A DNA stretch of 40,739 bases. Origin: a virus. The number at the start of each line of letters is the position of its first letter. Within the stretch, counting starts at the first letter, position 1. The position numbers and the translations under genes are program-made. Of the stretch, positions 3,001-27,869 are shown piece after piece. The DNA lies in IMG/VR virus record IMGVR_UViG_3300021197_000699, positions 1 to 40,739 of that record, one strand, 5' to 3'. A model generated the notes under the pieces. It had not been told where the DNA came from. It saw nothing but the letters and a program-made list of their open reading frames with translations, and ran no database searches.

Positions 3001-3670
3001 CAGCAACTTCTGGATCTTTAGCAAGGTAGATATAACCAGGTTTACTATCTTCCCACTGTGTTTGTGCGCCACTGCCGCCCAGTCCGTTTTTCATAATACT
3101 ATCAAGAAACGGTTTGTATGTTGCATGGTACAACATTGCAGGTTCTTCATTTTCAAACAAACTTGGATCTTTGCCAGCCCATTTGCGCATTATTACACCA
3201 GCAACAGCATTTGCTTGATTCTCATGCTTGCTACCATCACTACCATCAATGTCTTGATTCTGCTCATCTTGTGCTAGATGCACAAGTTCATGGGCAAGTG
3301 TTCTCATAATGTCTGCAAGGTGCCTGTCACTTGAACTAACAGTTAGTGTTTTTGCATCAGTATCATAGTAGCCAAATGTGCCATCTAGTTTCTTTTTGGT
3401 GATAACAATCTTAGGTACACTCTTTAGTTCTAAATTTTTAATGCAAAACTTTACAAATGGTTTCAGTGATGATGCATCTACGCCTTCACCAATACCCAAG
3501 TTAAACAGTGTGTTTGGATCACTGTTCTTAGTTGCTTTCTTATTGTGAAGTTTAGGCTTACCAGATCCAAGACCCAGTTTTTTGACATTACTATACTCAC
3601 TACCTATAGGAGCATCCTTGGTAGCGTTCTGTTTAGTAATTTTGCCTACTCCAAATTCACCTAGTTTCAT
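1..3670 (-). CDS. Giant multidomain phage protein, C-terminus beyond window (partial)
   Basis: An open frame starts at the ATG at 3670 and runs without a stop to the left edge, giving at least 1223 residues. A zinc-metallopeptidase-like HELVH lies at residues 127-131. YHAT at 181-184, followed by GYIYLAKDP near 211, resembles the core of ADP-ribosyltransferase-like folds. DGHHR at 376-380 recalls ParB-like domains. A Cys motif (CSNPKGFSQKAHC) lies near residue 586; I recall similar stretches from large T4-like marine phage virion proteins. Cys769 (in GGCVV), His796 (DHAVV) and Asp807 (YDFDG) have the spacing of a papain-like triad. GGPGSGKS at 1026-1033 is a Walker A motif of a kinase or zeta-toxin-like domain. 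The start codon overlaps the stop of the upstream gene (ATGA), suggesting coupling. It may be a virion-carried or ejected effector. The motifs are visible; the domain functions are inferred. Confidence 0.8.
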   Translation of the reverse strand, partial: MKLGEFGVGKITKQNATKDAPIGSEYSNVKKLGLGSGKPKLHNKKATKNSDPNTLFNLGIGEGVDASSLKPFVKFCIKNLELKSVPKIVITKKKLDGTFGYYDTDAKTLTVSSSDRHLADIMRTLAHELVHLAQDEQNQDIDGSDGSKHENQANAVAGVIMRKWAGKDPSLFENEEPAMLYHATYKPFLDSIMKNGLGGSGAQTQWEDSKPGYIYLAKDPEVAVSHAEANEEVPDEYIDDIVVLSIDASQLDQDNLEDDTNVMDDDSTLAYKGIIPSTAFSVQIDELKIEKPDPKDTLGVLRKDMPQVKSDDYAEFIEYLKSNGAKFTKETIPARDLKAMQKEFSDEGIMKQLMKNIEQGPNRKAVIASSDDYIMDGHHRWLVAINTGRDLNVFRINLPAYELYDLVNKFEKTYYKDIYNERGSIGVPLASGLVMSLFPHRPLKIKKSTPGKLRYDETITTVDLQQLETFADKLFAKVGIDVEFTRHFLDRVNDERNKKPITMAELTRLFKQEFKRWSKPIAQMGPGQEAVMKDLQTDINLPFALQYDKDNNELDLIAKTVMRKKDFKTPNREFPVEGWSAKYKKSINCSNPKGFSQKAHCAGKKKNEDDSKDTLGSIINFPGYEKKEKKPKYKPVPKQDKSVLDKVKSWFTDDINEGYKLRLENDEDLLVLHIRNTRTGERAEVRGNPNYEIDYDENDELHQLLDVIGKASNISELMNGEIVSVNPKHPDGPKSYAALDNAMNEDDASDKVYELLLDNIGAGPFDGGCVVVAQALQLIHGGELMALVRNDGTADHAVVQKGNTMYDFDGPGTQEEVVSRFEKNEGTRIAEVRKLRMTDLPDAPRNSELAKQIASLMKKPVQEAPTARDSMNLDADKLQQSIDYFYTDHAPKNFGSARTEGNFKGLKVVTFTKGNDTLMFLVNNDDQAVFYVMYSKFDDGVAIGNVRSNGTVKATEVYAYLVDKFGTLYSDDSQTPQGSKIWTSLAKFYPNLDVKDTGGRFVATKKTQVDEGVNDPHIFKAVFLAGGPGSGKSFVAKNILGGTGLRSINSDEVYEYLMKKQGLSLDPETIFSPQGQEIRDKAKGISRKREATYLDGRIGLIIDGTGKDVSKYQVMAQKLKAIGYDLSMIYVNTSLEVAQQRNKERERSLTPAEVEKMWNDVQQNLMQFQQIFGAGRFHIIDNSGGLEDLDRQKNFDKVYVETQRFLNTPPKNRKALAWIQKQK

Positions 3671-6783: not shown

Positions 6784-7987
6784 TGTATTCCAATCTGTTT
6801 AGTAAGTTGTTTATCCTGTGTACCTTGGGCATTAGAAAAACTTTTTGATTATGTTCGACCACATCTGCAATAATTTTCTGTATTCGTTTATGATGGGTAT
6901 CGCTGAGATTACACAAGTCATAACTAATCTTTAACAGCATACTCATACGCTCTCTGTGATCTGTTTCTATATCATATGTTTCTTTTATTACATCATCAAA
7001 TGTTTTATATCCTAGACTTTTTAGTAGTTGTAAACTGCCAGGGTTACCTATAATAATAAAAGGTTGCATGTTAAGTATAGGCTTAAATGTCTTTTCTGTC
7101 AAGAAGATTGTATCATCGTCAAAGTGTGTTTCTACTACAAAGTTCCAATACGCATTTTGATAAAAGTTGTGATTGATTAATTTGTGATTGTTATGGTCTG
7201 CATCTGAAAGTTCATCGCAGTTAAATGGCATTTGCAGTTCAAAACTCAGTACGTCTTGCTGTAGTGTGTCGTCATACTTTTCCCACAAACTAAAATCATC
7301 TAAACCTTTATGGCTTGTTTCATATTTGTAGCCTGTATAACTAAAATAACCGTGTTTTGCAACATCTAAATTATGTAGGAAACTTGCGTATATTTTACGC
7401 CATGCTTTGTCTGCACGGATCAAGCAGGTAAACTTTTTGTCTCGAGATTCTAAATTATGTTTCTTGACATACTTGCCTTCAAGTAATTGCAAGTATCTAT
7501 AATAAAGTTCATCGTCAGGAAAGTAAACAAAAGGTTCTTCACTGCGCAGTTTATAGTTTGCAGTTACGAAACGTATGCTTTGTTTTGTAACACCGTGTGT
7601 TGCACACATGCGATCTAAACTGTTATGTATCTCTGGATTCGGATTGTCACCTTCGCTGTAGTAAAACAATACTCTAAAGTCGCCTTGTTTAAAACGCTGA
7701 CGACTGCGATCATCCATGAGTGCAATATAGTCTATGTCAGGATCCCAAAAGTTTAAATTAATAGGATAGTACGCACTTGATGTGCCACTGATGTAATCGC
7801 TGACCAATGTACACTGTTGTACGACACCATCCAGTTTACAGTATTTCAAGAAGCGGAACTCATACGAAAAAGGCGGATTAATGCACAGGTCCCACCATGC
7901 ACTGGTATTTGGTTCCAGTGTTTCATCTTTAATTAAGTTCGGAAGGAAACCGTGCTGGTTTCTTTTATCGAACAACCATAATATCAT
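6776..7987 (-). CDS. Glycosyltransferase-like protein (403 aa)
   Basis: The C-terminal half contains FVVETHFDDDTIFLTEKTFKP and then PFIIIGNPGSLQLLKSLGYKT (in two blocks around residues 284-328). The TEKTFKPI core followed by a PFI..G.PG..L..LGYKTF stretch resembles the nucleotide-sugar-binding region of GT-B enzymes, fucosyltransferase-like. I know this protein type from marine phages, usually as a hypothetical protein. It starts at ATG with an AAGGA-type site upstream and overlaps the GT-A glycosyltransferase by 8 nt, so the two probably work on one glycan. The exact family is not certain. Confidence 0.75.
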   Translation of the reverse strand: MILWLFDKRNQHGFLPNLIKDETLEPNTSAWWDLCINPPFSYEFRFLKYCKLDGVVQQCTLVSDYISGTSSAYYPINLNFWDPDIDYIALMDDRSRQRFKQGDFRVLFYYSEGDNPNPEIHNSLDRMCATHGVTKQSIRFVTANYKLRSEEPFVYFPDDELYYRYLQLLEGKYVKKHNLESRDKKFTCLIRADKAWRKIYASFLHNLDVAKHGYFSYTGYKYETSHKGLDDFSLWEKYDDTLQQDVLSFELQMPFNCDELSDADHNNHKLINHNFYQNAYWNFVVETHFDDDTIFLTEKTFKPILNMQPFIIIGNPGSLQLLKSLGYKTFDDVIKETYDIETDHRERMSMLLKISYDLCNLSDTHHKRIQKIIADVVEHNQKVFLMPKVHRINNLLNRLEYNA

Positions 7988-7999
7988 CGAATGTGGTCC

Positions 8000-8254
8000 T
8001 TATTGACCGGTTGCTTCTACTGTAAAATCTTCTATGTGTGTTGCAAGCGATTCAATAATTGCTTCTACAACACGCTCGTCTAAATCTTCTGCTACACTAA
8101 ACTCTATGCTTTCGCCGAGTTCAGTTTGATAGTATGTAGCATCATTGTCGTCATCTTCCATGCACACTGTTTCACAATACATATCTACAGCGGCAGCAAT
8201 TGTTTCCATTTGCTGTTCACTTAAACTAGTTGCTGTGAAACGAATGTAACTCAT
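8000..8254 (-). CDS. Small acidic protein of unknown function (84 aa)
   Basis: This 84-residue, strongly acidic protein has no motif that I recognise. A run of Asp (EDDDND) lies mid-protein, and the remainder looks alpha/beta. Its ATG touches the stop region of the upstream gene (8254), showing tight coupling to the small virion-like genes 8254-9211. It could be a minor structural or regulatory protein. Confidence 0.7.
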   Translation of the reverse strand: MSYIRFTATSLSEQQMETIAAAVDMYCETVCMEDDDNDATYYQTELGESIEFSVAEDLDERVVEAIIESLATHIEDFTVEATGQ

Positions 8255-9520: not shown

Positions 9521-10208
9521 TTTGTTTAGTTTCCCTAATTTGATATTCAACAATTTTATTAATTTTAGAGCCAAGTTTAAATTGTACAAGTTGTAGCATC
9601 TTTTCATCACTGATGTAGCCAATGCTTTCTCCACACCATGTTCCCCATCTACGAATAGTATTACTATCGTTTACTCGGATAGTATCTGGATATTGTGCTG
9701 CCCACACTGCCCAGTCGCTGTATTGCTCGTAATTCATTCTATTGCCAAGTATTTGAAAACGATACTTACCATATGGCAAACGCTTTTTACGATAGCGTAT
9801 GTTACGTTCTGTAACTGTGCCTGGAAAATAACGTATTGCAACCAGTTCAAGCATAAGATCAGTAATATCTTCCTCTTTACGCTTTAGTCTATTGACATAT
9901 TCAGCAAGTTTTTGTATTCTATCTACATTGTCTGTGTAATAGTTAAGTGTTTCAGTTTCAACACGAACACGATCACTCCACTTGTTTGCAAAGCGTCTTA
10001 GTGTGCTTGTAAAACTTGTTTGATATTCTGTGTCAACTTTCCACCCCCAATTGTCAATAGTAGGTACACGCATTAGTTGTGGATAGTGATAGCGGTACAT
10101 ATGAATGCTCAGCCGATAGAGATACTTGCCGTAAAACAGTCTGTCGTTATGCTGTAACGGAAGGTTGTACTGATTGCTCAGAGCTTCCAGCTTCTGTAAT
10201 AGTTCCAT
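9510..10208 (-). CDS. Unknown protein, basic and aromatic (232 aa)
   Basis: This 232-residue protein is rich in Tyr, Arg and Trp, with no Walker, nuclease or transmembrane motif that I can name. A predicted helix (about residues 85-120, NVDRIQKLAEYVNRLKRKEE) is charged. It overlaps the end of the ClpA-like gene by 62 nt; AGGT lies upstream of the ATG. Nucleic-acid binding would fit the composition but is speculative. Confidence 0.7.
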   Translation of the reverse strand: MELLQKLEALSNQYNLPLQHNDRLFYGKYLYRLSIHMYRYHYPQLMRVPTIDNWGWKVDTEYQTSFTSTLRRFANKWSDRVRVETETLNYYTDNVDRIQKLAEYVNRLKRKEEDITDLMLELVAIRYFPGTVTERNIRYRKKRLPYGKYRFQILGNRMNYEQYSDWAVWAAQYPDTIRVNDSNTIRRWGTWCGESIGYISDEKMLQLVQFKLGSKINKIVEYQIRETKQNDE

Positions 10209-12423
10209 CTGTGTACCTAAATTTAATAACGAGCTTGTTATCTACATTTCTTATTTTAATTTTACAGCCATTCTTGTTATTGTCAACCGTTATTTGTTTA
10301 GCAATTGGCATACGCAACATAGTATCAATAGCACGAGACATCGGTCTTGCACCCATCTTATCGTCATATCCCTGTGCAAGAATAATGTCAATACTTGATT
10401 CATCAACGTGCAATGCAAATCCTTTTTCTTTAAGTTGTATTTGTAGTTCATTAATAAACTTCATGCACACTTTACGCTTTGCAACATCAGGTAGAGGATT
10501 AAACTTGCACATTGCGTCAATACGATTGCGGAACTCTGGTGCAAAGAATTTCTTGTATGCTTCATCTACTGCTTCAGTATGGTGCTCTTGTTCGTTAAAT
10601 CCAATTACACGTTTTTCTGATTCTGATGCACCTAAGTTAGTTGTAAGAATTACATAACAGTTTCTGGCATCAGCTCTCTTGCCATTACTGCCTGTAATAA
10701 AGCCTTCATCCATCAACTGTAGTAGCACATTACTAACATCTGGATGTGCTTTTTCAATCTCATCAAACAGTATAACTGCATGTGGATTACGCTCAATATC
10801 GCGAATAAGCAGTCCACCACTGAGGTTACTGTCTTCAAAGCCAACATACCCTGGAGGTGCACCAATAAAACGTGCTACTGTATGACGCTCTTGATACTCA
10901 CTCATATCATAGCGTAGCAGTTTCATTGCATTTGCTTCTGCAAGTTGTTTAGCAAGTTCTGTTTTACCTGTACCAGTCGGCCCAGTAAACACAAACACAC
11001 CCAGTGTTTTGTCACGCCTGTTAAGTCCTGCTTTAGCAACCCAAACTTTCTCAAGCACTCCGTCTACTGCATTGTCCTGTCCAAATACCTGTGACTTGAT
11101 ACTTGCTTCAATGTCCTGAGGTTTGACAGTGTCCTCATTGTCCTCTAACTGTGCAATGGGAATCTTTGCATATTTGCTAATTTCTTCAAGGATGTTTTGT
11201 CTGTCAATAGTTGCATCCTTAACACCAAGTCTGCGCTGCTTCGCACCAGCACTGTCGATCATATCAAATGCTTTGTCAGGCAATCGTTTGTCTGTGAGAT
11301 AACGCACACTCAAATCAACTGCATCCGTAACTGCTTGTGCTGTAATCTTGCAACTGTGAAACTTCTCATAGTACTTCTTACTGTTCATAAGAATCTTTTT
11401 AGCAAGTGCAGGCGTAGGTTCTGAAATAGTAATGTGATAGAAGCGACGCATAAGCGCACGATCTTTTTCAAAACTACTGTTGTATTCTTCCCAGGTAGTG
11501 CTTGCAATAACTTTAAGTTTACCTCTTCCTAAGTAAGGCTTTAGCATGTTAGCAAAGTCTGTGCCGCCGCCGCCGCCTGAGCCTGCTCCTTTAAGAGTGT
11601 GTGCTTCATCAATAAACAAGATACACTTACCTTTTTGGATCAGCGCACCTAGTACTTCTTTAACACGTTCTTCAAACTGTCCACGATACTGTGTGCCAGC
11701 GAGCATACTGCCTACATCCAAATTGTAAACAACGTGGTCTTGTAAATATTCAGGCACTGATTTATTAACAATCTTTACAGCCAGTCCTTCTGCAACTGCA
11801 GTTTTACCAACACCGGGATCTCCCACCATAAGCACGTTGCTTTTATTACGTCGTGCAAATGTTTGTGTAATATCATCAATAACATCATCTCTGCCAATAA
11901 CAGGGTCTAGTGTTTTTTCACTTGCTTGTGTATTCAAGTTTTCACAAAACTCGTCAATAATACCGTCTAAATACTGCATCTGTTGCTTGTTGAGTTGACT
12001 GCTTCTAGTGTTTTGTTTCATAAACCGCATAAACTCTTCTTTGTTGACGTTATATTTCATCAAGAAGTAACTACTGTGACTGTTGTGTTCACTCATAATA
12101 CTAATGAAAATATCTAGTAACGCAACATTTTCTCTGCCACTAAACAGTACACTTGTAAGCGCACGATTAAACACACGCTCTAGTGCTTGTGTTTTAATTT
12201 GACTTTTGCCGAGTGTTGATTGAAAAGTATCGGCAATATGACTTTCTAAATCCATTTTAAGTTCGTTAAGTTGTGCGCCATACTGTACTAACATTTTGGC
12301 AAACTCTTTGTTTAGAAACATTGCGAGCAACATGTGTTCAGTACTGATGTACACATGACCATATTTGTTTGCAATCTTGCCTGCGTGTTCTAGAGCTTTA
12401 TCTACTTCCTTAGAGGTTTTCAT
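10147..12423 (-). CDS. ClpA-like AAA+ unfoldase (758 aa)
   Basis: The length matches E. coli ClpA, and the layout is an N-terminal Clp_N-like helical region (about 1-150) followed by two AAA+ modules. The first has Walker A GDPGVGKT at 201-208 and Walker B ILFIDEAHT with a glycine-rich loop. The second has Walker A GPTGTGKT at 481-488 and Walker B VILFDEIEKAHPD. An IGF tripeptide at 607-609, just before the FFAPEFRNRIDA sensor region, lies where ClpA carries its ClpP-docking loop. This suggests that it can engage the host ClpP peptidase rather than act only as a disaggregase; no ClpB-type coiled-coil middle domain is present. It is coupled to the DnaJ-like gene by an ATGA overlap. Substrates are unknown. 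Confidence 0.9.
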   Translation of the reverse strand: MKTSKEVDKALEHAGKIANKYGHVYISTEHMLLAMFLNKEFAKMLVQYGAQLNELKMDLESHIADTFQSTLGKSQIKTQALERVFNRALTSVLFSGRENVALLDIFISIMSEHNSHSSYFLMKYNVNKEEFMRFMKQNTRSSQLNKQQMQYLDGIIDEFCENLNTQASEKTLDPVIGRDDVIDDITQTFARRNKSNVLMVGDPGVGKTAVAEGLAVKIVNKSVPEYLQDHVVYNLDVGSMLAGTQYRGQFEERVKEVLGALIQKGKCILFIDEAHTLKGAGSGGGGGTDFANMLKPYLGRGKLKVIASTTWEEYNSSFEKDRALMRRFYHITISEPTPALAKKILMNSKKYYEKFHSCKITAQAVTDAVDLSVRYLTDKRLPDKAFDMIDSAGAKQRRLGVKDATIDRQNILEEISKYAKIPIAQLEDNEDTVKPQDIEASIKSQVFGQDNAVDGVLEKVWVAKAGLNRRDKTLGVFVFTGPTGTGKTELAKQLAEANAMKLLRYDMSEYQERHTVARFIGAPPGYVGFEDSNLSGGLLIRDIERNPHAVILFDEIEKAHPDVSNVLLQLMDEGFITGSNGKRADARNCYVILTTNLGASESEKRVIGFNEQEHHTEAVDEAYKKFFAPEFRNRIDAMCKFNPLPDVAKRKVCMKFINELQIQLKEKGFALHVDESSIDIILAQGYDDKMGARPMSRAIDTMLRMPIAKQITVDNNKNGCKIKIRNVDNKLVIKFRYTDGTITEAGSSEQSVQPSVTA

Positions 12424-13247
12424 TTGTCATCCCGTAATTTTTTACAAATATTTAATTGTTGTTCAGTTAAGTTTTCAGGTATTTTAACTAGCACTTGCAC
12501 AAGCAAATCGCCTCTTGTGCCTGCTTTATTATACATTCCATGCATTGGTATTTTAAGACTAGTGCCGTACTGTGTGCCTGCTGGAACATTAAGGTTAATA
12601 GTTTTATTTTCAATGGTGTTAATTTGCACAACCTTACCTATTATAGCATTGAATGCATCTATAGTCAAGTGCATTTTAAGATTATCACCTTCTCTGGTAA
12701 ACACTTCATGTTCGTTTACATTTATTGTAACTGTGAGATCACCCGGCGGCAAATTACTGTGTGTCTTATCTCCTAACTTACTGTACTTTATTTTAGTACC
12801 ATTATTCACACCTTGGGGTATCTTTAGATTAACTAAGTGTCTGCTTCCATCCGTGTGTCTAATACTAACTGTTTTTTCTTGGTTTGCTAGTATTTCTTCC
12901 AGTGTACAATCTATGCTTATTGCTAAATTTTTGTTGACTTTTGCACGATGGTATTCTCTTTTGCTAGGATGGAAGCCTGCACTGCCAAATACATTAAACA
13001 TATCATCAAATACACTGTCCATGTTGCCAGTGTTTATTTTAATGTTTTGTCTACGACTGTTGCGAACGTCAAATGCTGCACGTTTATGCGGATCTTTTAG
13101 GACTTCATATGCTTCTGCAACCGCATGAAAAGTATCAACATCTCCGCCACTGTCAGGGTGATGCTGTTTTGCTTTGTTGCGGTATGCTGATTGTATATCT
13201 TTAGGACTACAAGTAGGTTCAAGTCCTAGCACATCATAATAGTTCAT
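12420..13247 (-). CDS. dnaJ: DnaJ-family co-chaperone, CbpA-like (275 aa)
   Basis: Residues 1-65 form a J-domain (NYYDVLGLEPTCSPKDIQSAY) with the HPD triad at 30-32, which stimulates the ATPase of DnaK. The C-terminal part (from about 110) has the two beta-rich substrate-binding subdomains of type II DnaJ/CbpA. The CxxCxGxG zinc finger of classical DnaJ is absent. It lies directly upstream of the ClpA-like gene with a 4-nt overlap. No Shine-Dalgarno sequence precedes the ATG. A sigma70-like promoter lies so close that the transcript would start at or next to the ATG. Confidence 0.9.
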   Translation of the reverse strand: MNYYDVLGLEPTCSPKDIQSAYRNKAKQHHPDSGGDVDTFHAVAEAYEVLKDPHKRAAFDVRNSRRQNIKINTGNMDSVFDDMFNVFGSAGFHPSKREYHRAKVNKNLAISIDCTLEEILANQEKTVSIRHTDGSRHLVNLKIPQGVNNGTKIKYSKLGDKTHSNLPPGDLTVTINVNEHEVFTREGDNLKMHLTIDAFNAIIGKVVQINTIENKTINLNVPAGTQYGTSLKIPMHGMYNKAGTRGDLLVQVLVKIPENLTEQQLNICKKLRDDK

Positions 13248-13284: not shown

Positions 13285-13617
13285 TTACTTTTTTGTTTTG
13301 CCCACTGCTTGTGCGCCAAAGAATGCAGCAACAATAGCAGCAACAGAAACAAAATATACAGCAGCCATATCACCTAGGATCTTAGCAGCCTGGTCAACGC
13401 CAACTAGCACTGCAATCAATACAATTGCCGGATATAATAACATGCCTCCTAAACTAAACCATGCCATCTTACGCTGTGCATCGCGCATTGCATCTGCATC
13501 TTCTAGTTCTCTACGCTTGAATTCCATGTACATTTTGTGTTCTTCTTCAGTAACCTTGCCGTCACCGTTAGTATCAGCAGGATGGAACCCTGCTTGTTTA
13601 ATTTCTTCATCAGCCAT
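13285..13617 (-). CDS. EF-hand membrane protein with two TM helices (110 aa)
   Basis: Residues 15-26 (DTNGDGKVTEEE) form a canonical 12-residue EF-hand loop with ligands at positions 1, 3, 5, 7 and 12. A charged helix follows, then two hydrophobic segments (about 50-70 and 80-102). The C-terminus is basic (GKTKK). A good AAGGAG site lies before the ATG, and TATAAATA lies 23 nt upstream. The protein would sit in the host inner membrane with a calcium-sensing N-terminus. A holin-like or membrane-remodelling role is possible but unproven; the clearer lysis cassette lies elsewhere (17578-19119). Confidence 0.8.
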   Translation of the reverse strand: MADEEIKQAGFHPADTNGDGKVTEEEHKMYMEFKRRELEDADAMRDAQRKMAWFSLGGMLLYPAIVLIAVLVGVDQAAKILGDMAAVYFVSVAAIVAAFFGAQAVGKTKK

Positions 13618-13639
13618 ATTGAACTCCTTGCTCCAAATT

Positions 13640-13651
13640 TATTTATAAATA
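13640..13651. promoter_or_regulatory. Back-to-back overlapping late promoter motifs
   Basis: A palindromic AT-rich core carries a perfect TATAAATA on the minus strand (13647-13640, toward the EF-hand gene) and another on the plus strand (13644-13651, toward the 2OG-oxygenase gene at 13662). This is a natural divergent late promoter. Because the core is palindromic, one of the two may be incidental. Confidence 0.5.
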
Positions 13652-13661
13652 TTATTTCGCA

Positions 13662-14246
13662 ATGCACAATTATTCCAACAAATCAGGTAAGATTGAATCT
13701 TGGGTTGACGCCAATACATTAGACGATTGGTGTGAAAAATTTACTATGACTACTGCTTCTTCTGCAAACGCTGAGAATAGCATAACTTACGGTATTGATA
13801 AGAATAACAAAAAGATGTACCTTTGGTTCGAGCATGCAATACTCAAGTCTTTAAGAAAAGAATTTTCCGAGTGTGAGTTATTTTTTGCACATTACATGGA
13901 CAGCAAAACTCCTCTGCACATACACTGCGATACATTTCCAGAAAAAGAAGATTACACTCCATATGTTAGTTTTCTTATTCCTATTAGTGTAGACAATGAT
14001 GCTGAACTATGCAATAATAGTAGTACAATTATATTAGATCCTGGCACAGGAGATTCCAACGATTACGAAAAGTATTTTACCCATGAGGCAGTAGAAAAAG
14101 TATCTCAGTATAAAATACGACAAGTGTTGGAATGGAATAAAGGAGACTTGCTATGGTGGGATAGTACATTGTATCATGCAAGTAATAACTTTTTAAAAAC
14201 AAATTCGAGTAAACAATGCATAGTAATACACACAAAAATTTATTAG
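13662..14246 (+). CDS. 2OG-Fe(II) oxygenase-like protein (194 aa)
   Basis: The facial triad typical of 2-oxoglutarate/Fe(II) dioxygenases is readable: His88 and Asp90 in LHIHCDTF, and His172 in LLWWDSTLYHASN, with beta strands of a double-stranded helix (YVSFLIPI) between them. The enzyme would hydroxylate or oxidise a substrate while converting 2-oxoglutarate to succinate; the substrate is unknown. The next gene, a short PLP-fold protein, overlaps it by 31 nt, so the two probably act together. The ATG lies only about 10 nt after a TATAAATA motif, and no ribosome site is visible. Confidence 0.8.
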   Translation: MHNYSNKSGKIESWVDANTLDDWCEKFTMTTASSANAENSITYGIDKNNKKMYLWFEHAILKSLRKEFSECELFFAHYMDSKTPLHIHCDTFPEKEDYTPYVSFLIPISVDNDAELCNNSSTIILDPGTGDSNDYEKYFTHEAVEKVSQYKIRQVLEWNKGDLLWWDSTLYHASNNFLKTNSSKQCIVIHTKIY

Positions 14247-15061
14247 AAGGAAGGTTACCTCCTTTAACTGATAGACTGTTACAGCAAATTGCACAAGATA
14301 GTTTAAAAAATATAGAGTTGGCGACACACAGTTGGAGTGATGCCAGTTATGAAGAATTTAAAACACTTGCCGTGCAATCTATTCTAGCACACAAATATAA
14401 CACAATTCTAGGTTTAGAAAACTATACCTGTGTGGATGTCCTTCAAGGCAATCAACAATACATAGATAGTTTGTTAATACAATATGGTGTTCAAGGTGTT
14501 CAAACATTTGAACATGATTATGGATATTATCGCAAAATCACGCCAAATATTGAATATGCTAGGTTAGGAAATTTATTATTTAATAAGCCGCTAATTATTG
14601 CAGCACCTATGCCTGGTTATATGAACTTACACCCCCAGTGGGATGCAATACTAGACGAGTGTGAACAAAAAGGTATTGATGTACACATTGACGGTGCCTG
14701 GTGGTGCTGCAGTCATGGTTTAACAATTGATCTTAATCGTAGTTGTATTAAAAGTTTTAGTGTAAGTCTTAGTAAAGCACTAGACCTTGGATGGAATAGA
14801 GTCGCTATACGATGGAGACGATTTGAAACTGTGGATAATGCGTGGCTAATGTCTGATGCAAAAATGATTAGTCATGCAAGCATTGAAATTGCTAGATATC
14901 ATTTACAAAATCTAAGTGTTGATTATTTCATAGATACATATCTAGACAAGTATAACAGCATTGTGCGAGAACTAAAACTTCGTCCAGGCAAAGTTATTCA
15001 TGCTGCAAGTAGTATAGATAGAAAAACTTTATATGGACTTAAGAATCTTCTTAAGGACTAA
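14216..15061 (+). CDS. Short PLP-dependent (fold type I) enzyme-like protein (281 aa)
   Basis: A fold-type-I core is readable: Asp159 in VHIDGAWW (contacts the PLP ring nitrogen) and Lys187 in SVSLSKALDLGWNRVAIRW (Schiff-base lysine). At 281 residues it is much shorter than the usual 380-420, and the C-terminal small domain is mostly missing. It is clearly paralogous to the minus-strand protein at 15694-16530: both share SHG, T, DL, R, CIK, FS and the lysine block in the same order. It overlaps the upstream 2OG-oxygenase gene by 31 nt and the convergent minus-strand oxygenase gene by 11 nt. It may be an aminotransferase, decarboxylase or aldolase; the reaction is not known. Confidence 0.8.
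   Translation: MHSNTHKNLLEGRLPPLTDRLLQQIAQDSLKNIELATHSWSDASYEEFKTLAVQSILAHKYNTILGLENYTCVDVLQGNQQYIDSLLIQYGVQGVQTFEHDYGYYRKITPNIEYARLGNLLFNKPLIIAAPMPGYMNLHPQWDAILDECEQKGIDVHIDGAWWCCSHGLTIDLNRSCIKSFSVSLSKALDLGWNRVAIRWRRFETVDNAWLMSDAKMISHASIEIARYHLQNLSVDYFIDTYLDKYNSIVRELKLRPGKVIHAASSIDRKTLYGLKNLLKD
15038..15055. repeat. Inverted repeat at the convergent gene junction
   Basis: CTTAAGAA-TC-TTCTTAAG forms an 8-bp perfect inverted repeat in the last codons of the plus-strand PLP gene, where the two cassettes meet. No clear U-run follows on the plus strand, so it is at best a weak terminator. Confidence 0.3.
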
Positions 15062-15725
15062 CTTTTCCATCACCATTGCTGACTGTTTCAGTTAATATGC
15101 CTGTTACATTAAAAGTCCATTTATTACTTATACCAACATTAGCACTTAGATGCCAACGATCAGGATGCCATACAATTACATCACCGGCTTTCCAATGTGT
15201 AATGAATGTTGTGCCTGCTTGTAACAGATGTCCGTGATCCCAATCCTTTGGAAATACAATATATCTTATTGCATACTTACCGATATCTGGATAATTATGT
15301 CTGAGATTCCAAAAGTTATCTACATGCCATGGCATTGTGTTTCCAGGCGGTTGCATCATTATTCTACAACCTTTATGAGTAAGAGGCAATTGTTCCATTA
15401 CTTCATCCATCCAAGGACTTGTAAGTGTAGGTTTATTAGCAGTGCTCTCCCAATGTCTTGTATTATGTTTATTATAGCCTTGAAACTTGTTACTAGGTGC
15501 TAGTCCGTACTCGCCAAAACTATCCCAATACTTTTTAAATTTTACACCCGCTTCGTCCCATGGTTTGTAATCTTCTCCCATGTCGGGACGCCAGTGATCC
15601 TGATTATTTTCTGCTAAATCTTCGCAGTCTTTGTGGATCGATTCCCAATCGGCACTTATATTTGTACACCATAGAAAATCATTGTCTTGTAGGTTATTTA
15701 GATAGGTATTCCGTGATACAGACAC
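15051..15725 (-). CDS. 2OG-Fe(II) oxygenase / aspartyl hydroxylase-like protein (224 aa)
   Basis: His134 and Asp136 (TMPWHVDNFWN) and His192 (VIVWHPDRWHLSANVG) form the metal triad of 2-oxoglutarate/Fe(II) oxygenases of the cupin type, close to the aspartyl/asparaginyl beta-hydroxylase group. The start is GTG at 15725, supported by GAGGAG 9 nt upstream. It overlaps the upstream PLP gene by 32 nt, the mirror image of the plus-strand pair. The substrate is unknown; a protein side chain or small molecule made by the PLP partner are both possible. Confidence 0.8.
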   Translation of the reverse strand: MSVSRNTYLNNLQDNDFLWCTNISADWESIHKDCEDLAENNQDHWRPDMGEDYKPWDEAGVKFKKYWDSFGEYGLAPSNKFQGYNKHNTRHWESTANKPTLTSPWMDEVMEQLPLTHKGCRIMMQPPGNTMPWHVDNFWNLRHNYPDIGKYAIRYIVFPKDWDHGHLLQAGTTFITHWKAGDVIVWHPDRWHLSANVGISNKWTFNVTGILTETVSNGDGKVSP

Positions 15726-16530
15726 GATTATAGTCTCCTCTTAGATATTGAGAATTATTAATAATAGCAAGTGTTATTGTATTGGTCGAAGTAAGATCAT
15801 ATTTTTTACAAATATTAGTACTTTTATCTACATATTTACTAACAAACTTATCATGACTAAAATTTTCTAATAGTTGCATAGTAATATAAGCATTGACCCG
15901 ATCAAATAATCCAGGACCAAGTAATGGTGCTGTTACTGCATCGTCTACTAACTCTTTGGTAAATCTTACACCTGATCTAATTGTTTCGCACCCAAAAGTT
16001 TTTGTTATGCTTGTTGAAAAATCTTTTATACAAGGTCTTTTTAAATCATAAGTTATACCATGACTTATTCCAAAATATGCTGCATCTATAAACACAGGAA
16101 TATCTAGCTCATCACATGTATCTAATAAATTATCGTATTCTGGATAAATGCTTCCGTTGCCACTAAATGGCAAACTTATAATTAGTGCGTCGTTTGATTC
16201 TAGTGGCGCTTCTTCTAGGTATTTCCAACTTACGTTATATTGATTACATAGAATTTTTGTTATTACAAAATCACTTCGGCTTACTCTTATTCTACACTGA
16301 TTGTATCTTGCTACAAACTCGCTAAAACTTTGAGTAGTACCGGATGTAAATCCGCAATGCTTCATAGTATCTAAATTACATTTATTATAACTACTGCTTT
16401 GCAACCAGTCACGCCATTTATTTTCAAAATCGCTGAATGAGAAATTTTGTAACTTTTTATATGATAGATCAATATTGTTGATAAAATCTATTACTTCGTT
16501 ATCTTTAAGATGTATATGATTAATATTCAT
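15694..16530 (-). CDS. Short PLP-dependent (fold type I) enzyme-like protein (278 aa)
   Basis: The sequence shows FTSGTTQSFSEF (phosphate-binding loop type), Asp149 in VFIDAAYFGISHG and Lys177 in STSITKTFG, followed by RSGVRF. These are the markers of fold-type-I aminotransferases, in a protein about 100 residues shorter than usual. It is paralogous to the plus-strand protein at 14216-15061. It overlaps the downstream 2OG-oxygenase gene by 32 nt. The start is ATG with no strong ribosome site. The AT-rich, partly divergent sequence suggests an acquired cassette. The reaction is unknown. Confidence 0.8.
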   Translation of the reverse strand: MNINHIHLKDNEVIDFINNIDLSYKKLQNFSFSDFENKWRDWLQSSSYNKCNLDTMKHCGFTSGTTQSFSEFVARYNQCRIRVSRSDFVITKILCNQYNVSWKYLEEAPLESNDALIISLPFSGNGSIYPEYDNLLDTCDELDIPVFIDAAYFGISHGITYDLKRPCIKDFSTSITKTFGCETIRSGVRFTKELVDDAVTAPLLGPGLFDRVNAYITMQLLENFSHDKFVSKYVDKSTNICKKYDLTSTNTITLAIINNSQYLRGDYNRVCITEYLSK

Positions 16531-16561
16531 ATCTAATTATAACATTGTTTTTTTGGATATG

Positions 16562-16846
16562 CTACTTATTTTTTCCTTCAAGTTTACTAATTCTCGCTTC
16601 AAGTTCATCTATCTTACTTGTAATTTTAGGATACTTTACACGCCATGCATTAGGATCATTTTGTACCCAAGTCCACCCCCACTTTGTAGCCAGGCATTCG
16701 AGACTTGCATCAAACTTGCGTACTGCCCATATAGCCATGCGTGTATCTTTGAACCAGAACAAAAATGCTGCACCAAAAAGTGATCCTACTATTCCTGTAT
16801 AAATCCATAAGCGATCACTCGCCATGTTTGAGATCGTCTCCCACAT
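16562..16846 (-). CDS. Single-pass membrane protein with C-terminal coiled coil (94 aa)
   Basis: A hydrophobic segment (about residues 14-33, IYTGIVGSLFGAAFLFWF) is followed by a soluble part and a short coiled coil (KIDELEARISKLEGK). The ATG at 16846 has a strong GGAGGAG site and overlaps the FkbM gene by 32 nt. Placement beside the lysis genes suggests a role at the inner membrane, but no family is recognised. Confidence 0.75.
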   Translation of the reverse strand: MWETISNMASDRLWIYTGIVGSLFGAAFLFWFKDTRMAIWAVRKFDASLECLATKWGWTWVQNDPNAWRVKYPKITSKIDELEARISKLEGKNK

Positions 16847-20132: not shown

Positions 20133-20857
20133 TACACTATCCTATCGTATAACATATTTATCCATTCTATGTGCGCACTCTCTCTAGGATGAGTCGTGTA
20201 AAACGGCTGCTTTGTTCGCTTCGCCCATGTATACATGCCTTCATCATGTGCAAACCAATTTATATTTTGCCTTAGGGTAGTTAAACTAGTGTCCATTTCG
20301 CAGTTAGATTCAAACAGACTGTTATCAACACATAAAAACGCATAATGAATATCTTTATTATCCAAATAGTTTTGTAACATAACTATCTCACACCAACTTG
20401 TATATAGTTCCCAATACTCTGTCTGTGCCACGTTTTGTACATAACTTTTAGCAAAATCACTTATACCTGTTGCTTCTGCATTGGCTCTATTTGCTTGCTG
20501 TGCTTGTAATACTTCATCATCTTTGTTATGGAAATGATCTTCAAAATTTTGATCATTGTAAGTCCAAGGATTGACGCTGTACCATGGACTATCTAAATGC
20601 CCAGTATCATATGCAAATCTAAATTCGTAACGATTAGGAAAACTCCACATTACTGCAACAAACAAGTCGAGGTCTTTGTACTTGTTTACTGCGTTCATTA
20701 CATTGCGGCGTATACTACTATTACTTGCTGCTGGTCGTGCGGTGTTGCATATGTTCCAGCCTTTACGTTGTGCAACTATGTTTGCCCAAGCATGTTCTTG
20801 ACTAGGCAGTTCACTTCCGTAAGTAAAACTATCGCCGCCGGCGATTAATACTGTCAT
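20132..20857 (-). CDS. SGNH/GDSL-like hydrolase (241 aa)
   Basis: GDSFTYG near residue 8 is block I of SGNH hydrolases with the nucleophilic Ser. AASNSSIRR may hold the block III Asn, and THPRESAHIEW near the C-terminus may hold the catalytic His. Such enzymes remove acetyl or acyl groups from glycans or lipids. It overlaps the upstream 2OG-oxygenase gene by an ATGA. The substrate is unknown. Confidence 0.75.
   Translation of the reverse strand: MTVLIAGGDSFTYGSELPSQEHAWANIVAQRKGWNICNTARPAASNSSIRRNVMNAVNKYKDLDLFVAVMWSFPNRYEFRFAYDTGHLDSPWYSVNPWTYNDQNFEDHFHNKDDEVLQAQQANRANAEATGISDFAKSYVQNVAQTEYWELYTSWCEIVMLQNYLDNKDIHYAFLCVDNSLFESNCEMDTSLTTLRQNINWFAHDEGMYTWAKRTKQPFYTTHPRESAHIEWINMLYDRIV
20155..20161 (-). 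promoter_or_regulatory. T4-type late promoter motif (ATAAATA)
   Basis: The minus strand reads GATAAATATG, about 23 nt before the ATG at 20132 and inside the end of the SGNH gene. It would drive genes from 20132 through the lysis cassette. Confidence 0.5.
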
Positions 20858-21594
20858 ATTTTAAATATTGTATCCTTGTTGGAGTTTGCTAGTATTTCTC
20901 GAGTACGATCTGTTTTAAGTCCAGTCATTTGCAACACTGCACGAGGATGACTGCTTGCATTTGCTGTACAGTGCGGGACATTACTCCAATCAAACACATG
21001 CACTTCTCCTGCACGCCATCTATCATACATGCAGTTTCCATACATATAAAAATGTCCAGGCTTCCAATCATCTAACATAATAGTAATACGCACAATACGC
21101 TCTGGATCTTCTGGACAACGATCCCAAAGTTTGTCAATGTGCATGTTAAACATTTGACCAGTCATTTGTATATGTGCTTGCCACTTAACTAAACTAACAC
21201 CATCACTGGTCAGTTGAAAGTAATCCATCATTTTGTACAGTGTTGGATAGTCTGACCAGTCTGCAAAACTATTTTTATTAGTAAGCATTATGCCTTTTGG
21301 ATCACCGCCTGCTTGTGCAATGTCGTATTCTTCTTGCGATAGCATGTCAGGATCTTTTTGCTTTTGTGCAAAATGTTTGCGGGTTGCCCAGTTTACAGGA
21401 TGTGTTGCTTGTACAAGTCTATCACGTTCCTCACGCCAATCGCCTTCAAATCTACCAATTACATTAAACCAATCGCCTGGCTTATCATCTATAGTATCAT
21501 CAAAATGATATTCACTGTGTCTCACAGTCCAATCCCAACTGCTTGGATATAAGTCAGGATCGTCTAGTTTTGTGTTTTTATTCCAATTTCTCAT
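20854..21594 (-). CDS. 2OG-Fe(II) oxygenase / aspartyl hydroxylase-like protein (246 aa)
   Basis: His152 and Asp154 (MFNMHIDKLWD) and His208 (VPHCTANAS) make up the metal triad of cupin-type 2-oxoglutarate oxygenases; RITIMLDDWKPGHFYMYG is a core strand pair, and the Arg in HPRAVLQMTG could bind 2-oxoglutarate. It is the third such enzyme in the window. It lies between a sulfotransferase-like gene and an SGNH hydrolase gene with 4-nt overlaps at both ends. Confidence 0.8.
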   Translation of the reverse strand: MRNWNKNTKLDDPDLYPSSWDWTVRHSEYHFDDTIDDKPGDWFNVIGRFEGDWREERDRLVQATHPVNWATRKHFAQKQKDPDMLSQEEYDIAQAGGDPKGIMLTNKNSFADWSDYPTLYKMMDYFQLTSDGVSLVKWQAHIQMTGQMFNMHIDKLWDRCPEDPERIVRITIMLDDWKPGHFYMYGNCMYDRWRAGEVHVFDWSNVPHCTANASSHPRAVLQMTGLKTDRTREILANSNKDTIFKI

Positions 21595-22262: not shown

Positions 22263-23323
22263 TACTTTACTAGCTCTGGCTTGTATACTGATTTTAGACC
22301 AAACGCTTGTGTGTTGAATTCCACTAGTGTTTGTAGTGCATCTGCAGTTACAAACTTCATTAGTGTATCAACTTGTGCATTGCCTGCATCACCTAGCATC
22401 CACTCATAGTTGCCAACTTTCTTTTGAATCTTCTTAACACTTTCAGGATTCTTTGAAACTTGCTCCAGTGCTGCTACTAGTTTAGCACGATTAGGATTGT
22501 TTTTGTTTACCCATAATGCTTTTTGTAATCCATCACGGAAACTTTTTACAAGTTTATATGCATCTGCTAGATCGCCTTTTGGCATGTCTTTATACATAGC
22601 ACTAAACTGTGATTCCATTTGAATGCCTGGATAGTTTGGATCATCTGCATGTGAACCGTCTGGCTGTAGAATGCCATGATGGAACCATAAACGTGCTTCA
22701 CCTTTGTCAATTACTGGCTGTACATGCTTTTTAAAACTTGCAGGATTTTCACGAGTACCGTTAAGTTCGCCACGCTTAAATGCAAGACGTCTTTCGTTGC
22801 CTTTCATTCCTTTAATCCAGTTTACCTTTTCGTTGAAGCAAGTTACATATGCTTCTGTGCTAGGCAAATTACCACACTTGAGTAGTGTCATTGCAATACC
22901 TTCAGGAACTTTACCGCCACCGCCTGAGAAACTTGTTCTGTCAGCATTTGGATTATGATCGCCATGTACCGCTGTAATAATATTTAGATTCATTAGTCCA
23001 ACACTATCATAGTCAGCATAGTTGTAATCCACTGCTTCTTGCAAGAAACTTACACCATTACCGCCGTTAGATACCATAATAGTTTTGTCATCAAAACGTA
23101 GTTCATTGTGAAACTTATTAAAGCCAGGAATATCTCTTGCACCACGGATATGCTTAAGAATAATCTTCTCACCATCCAAGTACTTTTCCATTTCAGTAGC
23201 AACAATTTGTGCCCATTGACTTGTACCGCCGCCTGGCTTTTGTGGTACAATCATTGTATAATCAGCAAGTGCTGATGTTGTGAATCCTAGCATCAGTGCT
23301 AGTGAAAATAATAGTTTACGCAT
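22262..23323 (-). CDS. tctC: TctC/Bug-type periplasmic solute-binding protein (353 aa)
   Basis: The N-terminus is a signal peptide (MRKLLFSLALMLGF... ending SALA), and the mature protein begins DYTMIVPQKPGGGTSQWA, the PxxPGGxxD-like opening of tripartite tricarboxylate receptors. It would capture a carboxylate in the host periplasm and deliver it to TctA. I choose the ATG at 23323 (AAGGAAG 8 nt upstream); a TTG at 23329 is also possible. It overlaps tctA by 8 nt. Two cysteines (LLKCGN, VTCFNE) could form a disulfide. Length is slightly above the usual 320-330. The ligand cannot be told. Confidence 0.85.
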   Translation of the reverse strand: MRKLLFSLALMLGFTTSALADYTMIVPQKPGGGTSQWAQIVATEMEKYLDGEKIILKHIRGARDIPGFNKFHNELRFDDKTIMVSNGGNGVSFLQEAVDYNYADYDSVGLMNLNIITAVHGDHNPNADRTSFSGGGGKVPEGIAMTLLKCGNLPSTEAYVTCFNEKVNWIKGMKGNERRLAFKRGELNGTRENPASFKKHVQPVIDKGEARLWFHHGILQPDGSHADDPNYPGIQMESQFSAMYKDMPKGDLADAYKLVKSFRDGLQKALWVNKNNPNRAKLVAALEQVSKNPESVKKIQKKVGNYEWMLGDAGNAQVDTLMKFVTADALQTLVEFNTQAFGLKSVYKPELVK

Positions 23324-24755
23324 AGTCAATTCTTCCTTTTCTCATTATGCTGTATATGAATATTCCAATAATGCACACTATTAGTGACATGAATATTGGT
23401 CTTGTTATTAGTGTTTCCACAGTGTAAAGTCCTGTGATCTGAAGTGTAAGTCCTTCAACTTTTTCTGCTAGAATGTAGCCAATTAGCATAGCAGGTCTGC
23501 TAAATTTGTAATGTCGCATTGTAAATCCTATTACAGAAAATACTGCTAACATTGCAAGGTCTTCCCATCCGCCTGTGTACTGCATACTAGTGAAAATAAT
23601 CAATCCTAGTAGCACAGGAAAATAGTATTTGTATGGCACTGCGGCTAGTTTACTAATAGGTTTAATTAGAAACATACAAATAAGTGCAACAACTATTGTA
23701 GCACCTAAGAAGCCAAATGTCATACTTTTAAATAACTCTGTGTCCTCTGCAATATCTGGAGTGCCTAGTTCTATGTTTAGATACATAAACAAACTCATTA
23801 ATATAGCAGCAAACTTTGCACCCGGTATTCCAAATATTACTGTTGTAATCATAGATGTTGCTTTTTGTGCATTGTTAGCACCCTCTGGTCCTATTACACC
23901 TTTGATGTTTCCTTTGCCAAACTGTTCATCGGGGTTACTAGCAACTGCTTGACCATATGCCATCCAGTCTGCCATCTGTCCACCTAGTCCGGGTAGCAAG
24001 CCAATAAACGCACCAATGAAACCTCCGCGCAGTGCAAGCCAACGATTGTCCCAACTTGCTTTCATGCCTGCCCATAATTCGCCGTCACGAATCACGCTGT
24101 CCGCAGTGCTGTGTTTGAGAAACAATCCTCGTGTAAGTTCTGGCACAGCAAATAGTCCTGCTGCAACTGCCATAATTTGTATACCATCTTCTAGGTAGAA
24201 CCAATATTGTGCGCCGAATCTTGCTTCGTTGTTATCAGGGTTGACACCTACCATGCCTACAAAGATTCCAAATGCAATAGCAAGCACAGTGCGGAACCAA
24301 AACTGGTTAGTTAAAAATCCTACAGTAACAAATGCTAGTAGAACAAATGCCCACAGTTCAGGAACACCCAATATGTAGATTAGATTAGTGTACCAGGGTA
24401 GTAGTAGAAAAACTAAACAACCCCATAACAGTCCGTTTACTGTGCTTGTTGTAACTGCAGCACTGATGGCATAACCTGCTCTACCTTTTTGTGCTAGTGG
24501 AAAGCCATCTACCATAGTAGCAGCCGCACTGTTAGCACCTGGTATACCTAGCAGTATTGCAGTAAAACTGTCGCCTGTTGTGCTTGCTGCAACAACTGCC
24601 ATAAGGAATATAACTCCCATGTATGGCTCATGTGCAAAATAACCTATGAATCCAAACAGTGCAACCAAACCTGTAGTAGCACCTGCACTAGGTATAATAC
24701 CTATAATAAGTCCATAGAATACTCCTGCGAGTAAGTATGCAATCATTTCAATCAT
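23316..24755 (-). CDS. tctA: TctA-type large membrane subunit of tripartite tricarboxylate transporter (479 aa)
   Basis: A hydrophobic protein with about 10-12 transmembrane segments and the family signature LLGIPGANSAAATMVDGFP followed by LAQKGRAGYA. A second related stretch occurs in VIFGIPGAKFAAILMS. TctA is the ion-coupled permease that takes substrate from TctC; the family's length is about 500. I choose ATG 24755; a TTG at 24776 would add seven residues. No TctB (small four-helix subunit) gene is visible; either TctB comes from the host or it is not needed. TctA in a phage is unusual. Confidence 0.85.
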   Translation of the reverse strand: MIEMIAYLLAGVFYGLIIGIIPSAGATTGLVALFGFIGYFAHEPYMGVIFLMAVVAASTTGDSFTAILLGIPGANSAAATMVDGFPLAQKGRAGYAISAAVTTSTVNGLLWGCLVFLLLPWYTNLIYILGVPELWAFVLLAFVTVGFLTNQFWFRTVLAIAFGIFVGMVGVNPDNNEARFGAQYWFYLEDGIQIMAVAAGLFAVPELTRGLFLKHSTADSVIRDGELWAGMKASWDNRWLALRGGFIGAFIGLLPGLGGQMADWMAYGQAVASNPDEQFGKGNIKGVIGPEGANNAQKATSMITTVIFGIPGAKFAAILMSLFMYLNIELGTPDIAEDTELFKSMTFGFLGATIVVALICMFLIKPISKLAAVPYKYYFPVLLGLIIFTSMQYTGGWEDLAMLAVFSVIGFTMRHYKFSRPAMLIGYILAEKVEGLTLQITGLYTVETLITRPIFMSLIVCIIGIFIYSIMRKGRIDYA

Positions 24756-24863
24756 GGAGAATCCACGACGATGCAAACACCGATCGTGCCTTTATTAATT
24801 TACGGGAATCTACAATGTTAGTTCTGGGCCTTCCGCCATACAAACATTAATTGTAGTATGTGT

Positions 24864-26385: not shown

Positions 26386-26923
26386 TTGGTTTATAGGTGC
26401 CTATAAAAATATCGCTGTGTTTATAATGTTGTACCCATTGTACACTATGTTTTTGCCCAAAGTCAAGTATTAATTTGTTTTGTTCTTGAATACGATAAGT
26501 CATAAAATAATCTGTTTCATACCAATCATAGTTTGGATATGTAATCTCAAATCCGCCTGCTTGTTTCCACCATAGAAAACTTACCCAGTCTGGTCTGTAT
26601 ACTAGTTGTATCCAAGCAAGTGGATAAGCATCTTGTATTGCCTCAAAGTAGTAGGGCCACTCATGACTCATTATTAGTTTACAGCCTTGTGCAGGATCTG
26701 CATCTGTATATGGAGCATTTAAGTTTGAACGATCTAAACTTACATTAAACTCCATGCCTGTGCCATAGTATGCTTCTTGGTGACCAGCAAAACCATGGTG
26801 AGTGTAATTGCGATGTTCTGCACGATCTGTGCAGTTGTATTGACCTGAGGATTTTATTTCCCTGGCAATGCCACTCCAGCGACTACCAGGAACACCTGTG
26901 AAAAATATATATTCAGGTAGCAT
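26372..26923 (-). CDS. Sulfotransferase-like P-loop protein (183 aa)
   Basis: FFTGVPGSRWSGIAREI at the N-terminus resembles the 5'-phosphosulfate-binding loop, and LVYRPDWVSFLWW fits the 3'-phosphate-binding Arg region. The protein is short for the family (about 250-300). It overlaps neighbours by 11-14 nt. It may be a minimal sulfotransferase, but a non-catalytic P-loop protein is possible. Confidence 0.6.
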   Translation of the reverse strand: MLPEYIFFTGVPGSRWSGIAREIKSSGQYNCTDRAEHRNYTHHGFAGHQEAYYGTGMEFNVSLDRSNLNAPYTDADPAQGCKLIMSHEWPYYFEAIQDAYPLAWIQLVYRPDWVSFLWWKQAGGFEITYPNYDWYETDYFMTYRIQEQNKLILDFGQKHSVQWVQHYKHSDIFIGTYKPNANQ

Positions 26924-27869
26924 AAATCTTACTTTCTGTTGCTATTCTTTGTGCAATATCCTCTTGTGATATCGGCATATGGCTGTTAGTAGTTGTTGTC
27001 CATTTGTTATAAACTTCAGCAGCTTCATCAAAATTTATAACACGTTTTTGTTTGTCTTGCATGGTGTTCATTTTTACAGGTATTTCATTTGGTAGTTTAT
27101 TTGGTACCAGGCTTTGTATAAACTTTTTTAATTGTGTTGCACCCGCTGCTTGTTCTCTATTACATATATATTTTTTATCTTTAGTTTGCATATACATACT
27201 AGTCATATACCTAATAGTGCTATACTCTTGTAAACTAATGCCAAGTCTACTTTCAACATTATGATCCAATCCTGTTAGCTCTTTCATCATACTGTCTACG
27301 TCGCGGTGATTGTCGTCATAGTTTACAGCTCTTGTAATATTAAAATTATCTTCTGCCCAATATTCGTAATTAGAATATTGTTTTAATTTTCCATTAAAAT
27401 ATCTTAAATCTAAAGTTTGCTTTATATCCTCACCATGCACTGATATTCTTTCTTTTACGCTATACACATTAAGCGTTTTAGTATTGCGCCTAATACTCCA
27501 ACTCAGTGCATATTCAAATGGATCTCTAGTACAGTAAAATATTTTATCAAATTTTTTATTACACACGTCGTATAACTGTTGATAGTTTTCTTTTTTATTC
27601 TCTAATCGACTGGTAATATGATATTGTGCAATACGAGAAACTAAACTATTGCTTGTAGATTCTAGCAATCCGCATATTTCAGGTATTGTTTGAGAATACC
27701 CTAAACTAAAATCTTTATACAAGTTTCCTTCCGATAATCCTAGCCCATTTAGCAGTTCATGAGTATTCCAGTAGTCTAATCCGGCACTATGCAAATACAC
27801 AGTGAGCGCACGTTGCAGGTAAGTACTGCCAACACCATCAGGTGTTAAAATCAAATATTTGGGAAGCAT
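26913..27869 (-). CDS. Sulfotransferase-like protein (318 aa)
   Basis: LTPDGVGSTYLQRAL near the N-terminus matches the PAPS 5'-phosphosulfate loop, and IFYCTRDPFEYALSWSIRR matches the 3'-phosphate motif with Arg and Ser. Size is normal for sulfotransferases. It is the first gene of the long minus-strand island, so the island begins with sulfation. An ATAAATA core lies only 5 nt before the ATG, leaving no room for a leader. Confidence 0.75.
   Translation of the reverse strand: MLPKYLILTPDGVGSTYLQRALTVYLHSAGLDYWNTHELLNGLGLSEGNLYKDFSLGYSQTIPEICGLLESTSNSLVSRIAQYHITSRLENKKENYQQLYDVCNKKFDKIFYCTRDPFEYALSWSIRRNTKTLNVYSVKERISVHGEDIKQTLDLRYFNGKLKQYSNYEYWAEDNFNITRAVNYDDNHRDVDSMMKELTGLDHNVESRLGISLQEYSTIRYMTSMYMQTKDKKYICNREQAAGATQLKKFIQSLVPNKLPNEIPVKMNTMQDKQKRVINFDEAAEVYNKWTTTTNSHMPISQEDIAQRIATESKIYAT

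Follow-up and report, generated by a model that had tools for sequence, protein, structure and literature searches.

Two oxygenase–PLP enzyme gene pairs at a variable site of a phage genome fragment

The stretch of DNA analysed here (the window) comprises the 40,739 bases of virus record IMGVR_UViG_3300021197_000699 and is likely a genome fragment. Positions 13662–16530 hold four genes in two convergent two-gene operons, an arrangement described in a previous sequence-only reading and found again in the list of open reading frames: oxA and plpA on the plus strand (pair A) converge on plpB and oxB on the minus strand (pair B). The genes oxA (13662..14246, +; 194 aa) and oxB (15051..15725, -; 224 aa, GTG start) encode 2OG-Fe(II) oxygenase-like proteins, and their partners plpA (14216..15061, +; 281 aa) and plpB (15694..16530, -; 278 aa) encode putative compact fold-type-I PLP enzymes. 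The members of each pair had been described as fused by overlaps of 31–32 nt; the overlaps are as described (31 nt for oxA/plpA and 32 nt for plpB/oxB), but the genes are not fused. The 3' ends of the convergent plpA and plpB overlap by 11 nt. Conserved genes flank the four, namely those for an EF-hand-like/TM protein of 110 aa on the left (13285..13617, -) and for a small TM protein of 94 aa on the right (16562..16846, -). An FkbM-type methyltransferase gene adjoins this site, and ClpA and DnaJ genes are adjacent to each other at 10147–13247.

The PhyH profile matched both oxygenases weakly (oxA, E = 0.0056, 17.4 bits; oxB, E = 0.022, 15.5 bits), below the Pfam cut-off of 22 bits. Each nevertheless carries the HxD...H triad with a downstream basic residue at a K/R position: H88, D90, H172 and K184 in oxA, and H134, D136, H192 and K202 in oxB. 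No significant sequence similarity was detected between oxA and oxB (profile comparison, E = 0.5), and each PLP protein is thus accompanied by a different oxygenase, as had been claimed. Homologs of oxA occur in two settings among the related loci (numbered with L below), next to a PLP gene in L002 (49% identity) and as lone genes of 126–135 aa in L006 and L011, with H88, D90 and H172 retained; a distant relative lies at 581–1402 of L002. The oxB family has relatives in L086, in Synechococcus phage S-SCSM2R and in the window itself, where a third oxygenase is encoded at 20854–21594 (E = 7.5e-10). The last of these is 89–95% identical in L007 and L016, both of which are without the cassettes. 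In S-SCSM2R, the oxB relative adjoins an inosamine amidinotransferase gene and sits amid glycosyltransferases and an AHBA-synthase-like gene.

The proteins plpA and plpB are 27% identical over 244 residues (E = 1e-25), a similarity that is not due to chance and upholds their designation as paralogs. The Asp, the Schiff-base Lys of SxxK and the Arg at Lys+8 are invariant across five members of the family (D159, S184xxK187 and R195 in plpA; D149, S174xxK177 and R185 in plpB); the PLP Asp, Lys and phosphate residues are therefore kept in both proteins, and they stay invariant among family members down to 25% identity. The Aminotran_1_2 profile (PF00155) matched plpB with an E-value of 6e-4 at 19.5 bits, under the Pfam cut-off of 19.7, and did not match plpA, while the PLP protein of L086 matched a valine-pyruvate transaminase model (E = 3e-4). 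When the PLP proteins and the oxygenases were searched against PDB sequences, no match rose above chance level. The structure predicted for plpB from five sequences has a mean pLDDT of 68.5 and a pTM of 0.72, and all of the Foldseek and VIA matches listed for it are fold-type-I PLP enzymes. The Foldseek matches listed include HisC (E = 4e-6), GntC (1e-5), CobD (3e-5) and OrfR (5e-5), and in VIA the listed enzymes, MppP, RohP, CobD/CobC and HisC (Z about 14) among them, aligned over 228–252 residues with Z scores of 13.7–14.9. The cofactor residues and the plpB model thus agree with the fold-type-I assignment made earlier. A first model of plpA was of low confidence (pLDDT 46), and its top structural matches were again fold-type-I enzymes. 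The best viral structural match to plpB, A0A6J5KXV0 (BFVD; E = 5e-10, 20% identity), is an uncharacterized PLP-fold protein of an uncultured Caudovirales phage and, with 282 aa, is near plpB in length.

At 278–281 aa, plpB and plpA are unusually small for their fold, their structural matches having about 315–390 aa. The sequence-only reading had concluded that the greater part of the C-terminal domain is missing from both, which now appears doubtful: alignments of the plpB model span residues 1–278 and almost the full length of the matched chains, and most of the listed matches reach the final residue. Because of this near-full-chain alignment, the modelled plpB resembles the entire fold in compact form, with a low-confidence tail, rather than an enzyme without most of its C-terminal domain. 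As regards a complete C-terminal domain with its carboxylate-binding Arg, the last stretch contains an invariant Y-x-R-x-x-I-T-E, but residues 249–278 were modelled at a pLDDT under 50.

A search baited with the gene on the left side of the insert yielded 80 related loci. Scans of viral contigs rest on short conserved seeds, so that the count of relatives is a lower bound. The site, bordered by the EF-hand/TM and small TM genes, is empty in L007, L008 and L016, as it is in L017, L018 and L022, which are more distant; L006 and L011 have a single short gene of the oxA type there, L002 has oxA-plpA alone and L001 has plpB-oxB alone. Among the relatives compared, only the window has both pairs. 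DNA similarity to the relatives with an empty site or a lone oxA stops near 13585–13617 and restarts near 16576–16596, and the insert (approximately 13618..16575) therefore consists essentially of the four genes. Borders of a mobile element were considered for this insert and rejected, as no terminal repeats were found. In L068, a more distant relative, a lipase-like ORF (7243–8001) occupies the same variable site.

The pairing of the two gene types is not confined to this site. L086 carries plpB (51% identity) and oxB (47%) in the gene order of the window, with a 44-nt overlap, and in its collected contig neither the DnaJ/ClpA/FkbM backbone nor any of the flanking genes of the site was detected. 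All five PLP genes (window A, window B, L001, L002 and L086) overlap a same-strand oxygenase gene, by 8–44 nt, and none was found without such a partner. The reverse does occur: the lone oxA genes of L006 and L011 show that an oxygenase can be maintained on its own. A check of co-occurrence thus found the pairs in related (L001, L002) as well as unrelated (L086) phages. The oxygenase–PLP pairing is real and apparently undescribed in phages; literature searches found no description of such a pair in phages. Named phages searched by tblastn with oxA, plpA, plpB and the window oxB gave no match, a single-query scan of a genome collection for relatives returned none, and a PADLOC search for defence genes gave no match.

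Two different oxygenases, each paired with a paralog of one PLP protein, had been taken as a sign of a duplicated two-step chemistry; duplication in place is rejected on the states of the site together with the identities. Pair A alone in L002 and pair B alone in L001 share one site, plpB has its closest relatives in other viruses (92% and 51% identity, against 27% for plpA), and the two oxygenases show no relationship at the sequence level; the modules were therefore acquired separately. Judged by these sequence comparisons, the cassettes are separately mobile modules at one hypervariable, swap-prone site.

A comparison of the window with L001 gives dN/dS values of 0.08 for plpB, 0.07 for oxB (with few changes) and 0.08 for DnaJ, and the value of about 0.08 indicates that plpB is under purifying selection. 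The corresponding dS values are unequal (0.06 for oxB, 0.45 for plpB and 0.83 for DnaJ), which suggests that part of the cassette has recently been exchanged. A 12-base palindrome, TATTTATAAATA, has exactly two copies in the 868 kb of collected DNA, one in the window (13640..13651) and one in L002 (5718–5729), both in the gap between the divergent EF-hand/TM (-) and oxA (+) genes. It contains two overlapping divergent TATAAATA octamers, which resemble T4 late promoters. However, the window has no excess of TATAAATA (2 copies versus 3.8 expected), and the label of a T4-type late promoter was therefore dropped; TATTTATAAATA is possibly a divergent promoter or a junction mark.

Judged by the clamp loader, the nearest named relatives are jumbo phages: the clamp loader encoded in the window is 57% identical to that of PA5oct and similar jumbo phages of Pseudomonas, and its ClpA is 38–42% identical to jumbo-phage proteins; by these matches, the phage is probably a relative of the jumbo phages. 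It is presumably also marine, to judge from the oxygenase-rich company of its relatives. Adjoining the clamp loader gene is a full-length class-V aminotransferase-like gene (32468–33667; Aminotran_5, E = 1e-21), the third PLP enzyme of the window. A large protein encoded at 2–3670 combines an M78/IrrE-like peptidase region with an AAA_33/zeta-toxin-like kinase domain.

We propose that each module consists of a 2OG-Fe(II) oxygenase and a compact class-I/II-aminotransferase-like PLP enzyme, translationally coupled via their overlapping genes, and that both enzymes of a module would act successively on one small amine, probably a free amino acid. The oxygenase would hydroxylate the amine substrate, and the PLP enzyme would then form an external aldimine on the hydroxylated product, leading to transamination, beta/gamma-elimination with cyclisation, decarboxylation or a retro-aldol reaction. 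Modules A and B differ in oxygenase and probably also in substrate. Successive steps on one substrate best explain why a single PLP family is teamed with two unrelated oxygenases, whichever gene comes first and with an overlap each time. The substrates of class I/II PLP enzymes are primary amines, chiefly amino acids. Catalysis, step order and substrate class of the pairs are what we infer; no substrate-specific residue was identified, and Foldseek with the plpB model did not tell arginine cyclases, HisC, C-S lyases and CobD apart. The two-step modification chemistry suggested earlier for this locus remains plausible, and we tentatively favor two exchangeable oxygenase–PLP modules performing successive steps on one small amine, to which we give somewhat less than an even chance. 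Amidinotransferase neighbors in two other phages hint at an arginine or guanidino substrate: a fragment of such a gene (HsvA, E = 2.5e-8) adjoins plpB-oxB in L086, the second being that of S-SCSM2R, and none was seen in the window. It is more doubtful that the modules serve as interchangeable mini-pathways by which, in the infected cell, a minimal PLP enzyme and its 2OG hydroxylase produce an unusual amino acid, possibly a guanidino one, or a small molecule of a related kind; if so, they would represent phage-encoded natural-product-like metabolism.

The main rival is glycan tailoring, since genes of sulfotransferase-like, FkbM-like and glycosyltransferase type occur in the vicinity of some loci. 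The targets would then be sugars or surface glycans, such as the amino- or guanidino-sugars of a virion or host polysaccharide, with the oxygenase acting on the sugar or a substituent and the PLP enzyme supplying or transforming an amine. The S-SCSM2R neighborhood described above fits this explanation, as do the FkbM gene beside the site and a sulfotransferase-like gene (recognized by eye) that adjoins plpB-oxB in L086 (2571–3728) and has a 26% identical homolog (E = 2e-32) at 26913–27869 of the window. However, the FkbM gene and the flanks are present also where the site is empty, and sugar aminotransferases normally belong to the DegT/DnrJ family, whereas the plp proteins match class I/II; we consider glycan tailoring unlikely. 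The two enzymes could also be independent metabolic levers that make no product, the oxygenase using up 2-oxoglutarate and the PLP enzyme transaminating, so that the host 2OG/glutamate balance is shifted. Such a role has been proposed for cyanophage 2OG oxygenases (PMC9602691), where it is still hypothetical, and the overlapping pairing in either order argues instead for a shared pathway, which makes independent action distinctly improbable here.

We hold it to be just as improbable that the pair modifies a macromolecule, be it a protein side chain, a tRNA or a base of the phage DNA. PLP enzymes do act in thymidine hypermodification in Vi1-like phages, and one is among the proposed 5-hmdU pathway genes of the Ackermannviridae (PMC6336734); but no hydroxymethyltransferase, kinase or pyrophosphorylase partner was recognized in the annotated ORFs of the window, which is a fragment, and the module is optional in close relatives, unlike a genome-wide base modification. 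The short length of the PLP proteins, the low-confidence tail of the model and the lack of PLP genes in many relatives would suit degraded or non-catalytic remnants riding an exchange hotspot. This is very improbable, given the low dN/dS of plpB, the cofactor residues retained at low identity and the recurrence of the family in L086.

The favored reading, that of successive steps on a small amine, has a parallel in VioC/VioD of capreomycidine formation, where a 2OG arginine hydroxylase yields hydroxyarginine and its PLP partner cyclises it (PMC8399532; PMC10367076), and clusters with a lone vioC are also known (PMC8399532), as is the lone oxA in L006 and L011. Like VioC/VioD, the phage pairs combine a 2OG-Fe(II) hydroxylase with a class I/II-like PLP enzyme, and by analogy they would follow the same logic; membership in that system is not claimed. 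Differences are that the PLP enzymes of the VioC/VioD and GntC type have about 350–390 aa, compared with 278–281 aa in the phage, that no sequence kinship is detectable and that no NRPS was seen. GntC (L-enduracididine), OrfR, MppP and RohP are among the structural matches to the plpB model, which they fit no better than HisC or CobD do. The best matches, the HisC and CobD/CobC group, share the layout of PLP residues with plpB, whereas identity to plpB is 10–14% and plpB is roughly 40–80 residues shorter, falls under the Pfam cut-off and is paired with an oxygenase. The 2OG-Fe(II) oxygenases of marine cyanophages have the HxD...H motif of oxA and oxB, which are distant from the named members. 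Unlike the modules described here, the S-SCSM2R stretches examined have no recognized short PLP partner. One of them (PQ898602.1, 213353–217073; L092) encodes KdsA, KdsB, a glycine amidinotransferase and two oxygenases, each oxygenase being followed by a hypothetical protein of ~240 aa with no PLP profile match.

Marine phages encode many 2OG oxygenases with substrates not investigated, and S-SCSM1 alone has 24, the functions of which were likewise not investigated (PMC9602691). A recurrent small PLP partner would narrow the oxygenase substrate to a compound bearing a primary amine, an amino acid being the simplest case, and the pair forms a two-enzyme system open to reconstitution in vitro. 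In addition, the natural series of empty, oxygenase-only, A, B and A+B sites permits the effects of the modules to be compared one by one. Elsewhere in the window, a TctA transporter gene is located at 23316–24776 (PF01970, E = 4e-91). In L001, a TctA-like gene is followed by an apparent TctC binding protein (15–2358), and a tripartite tricarboxylate transporter thus appears to be encoded in phage genomes.
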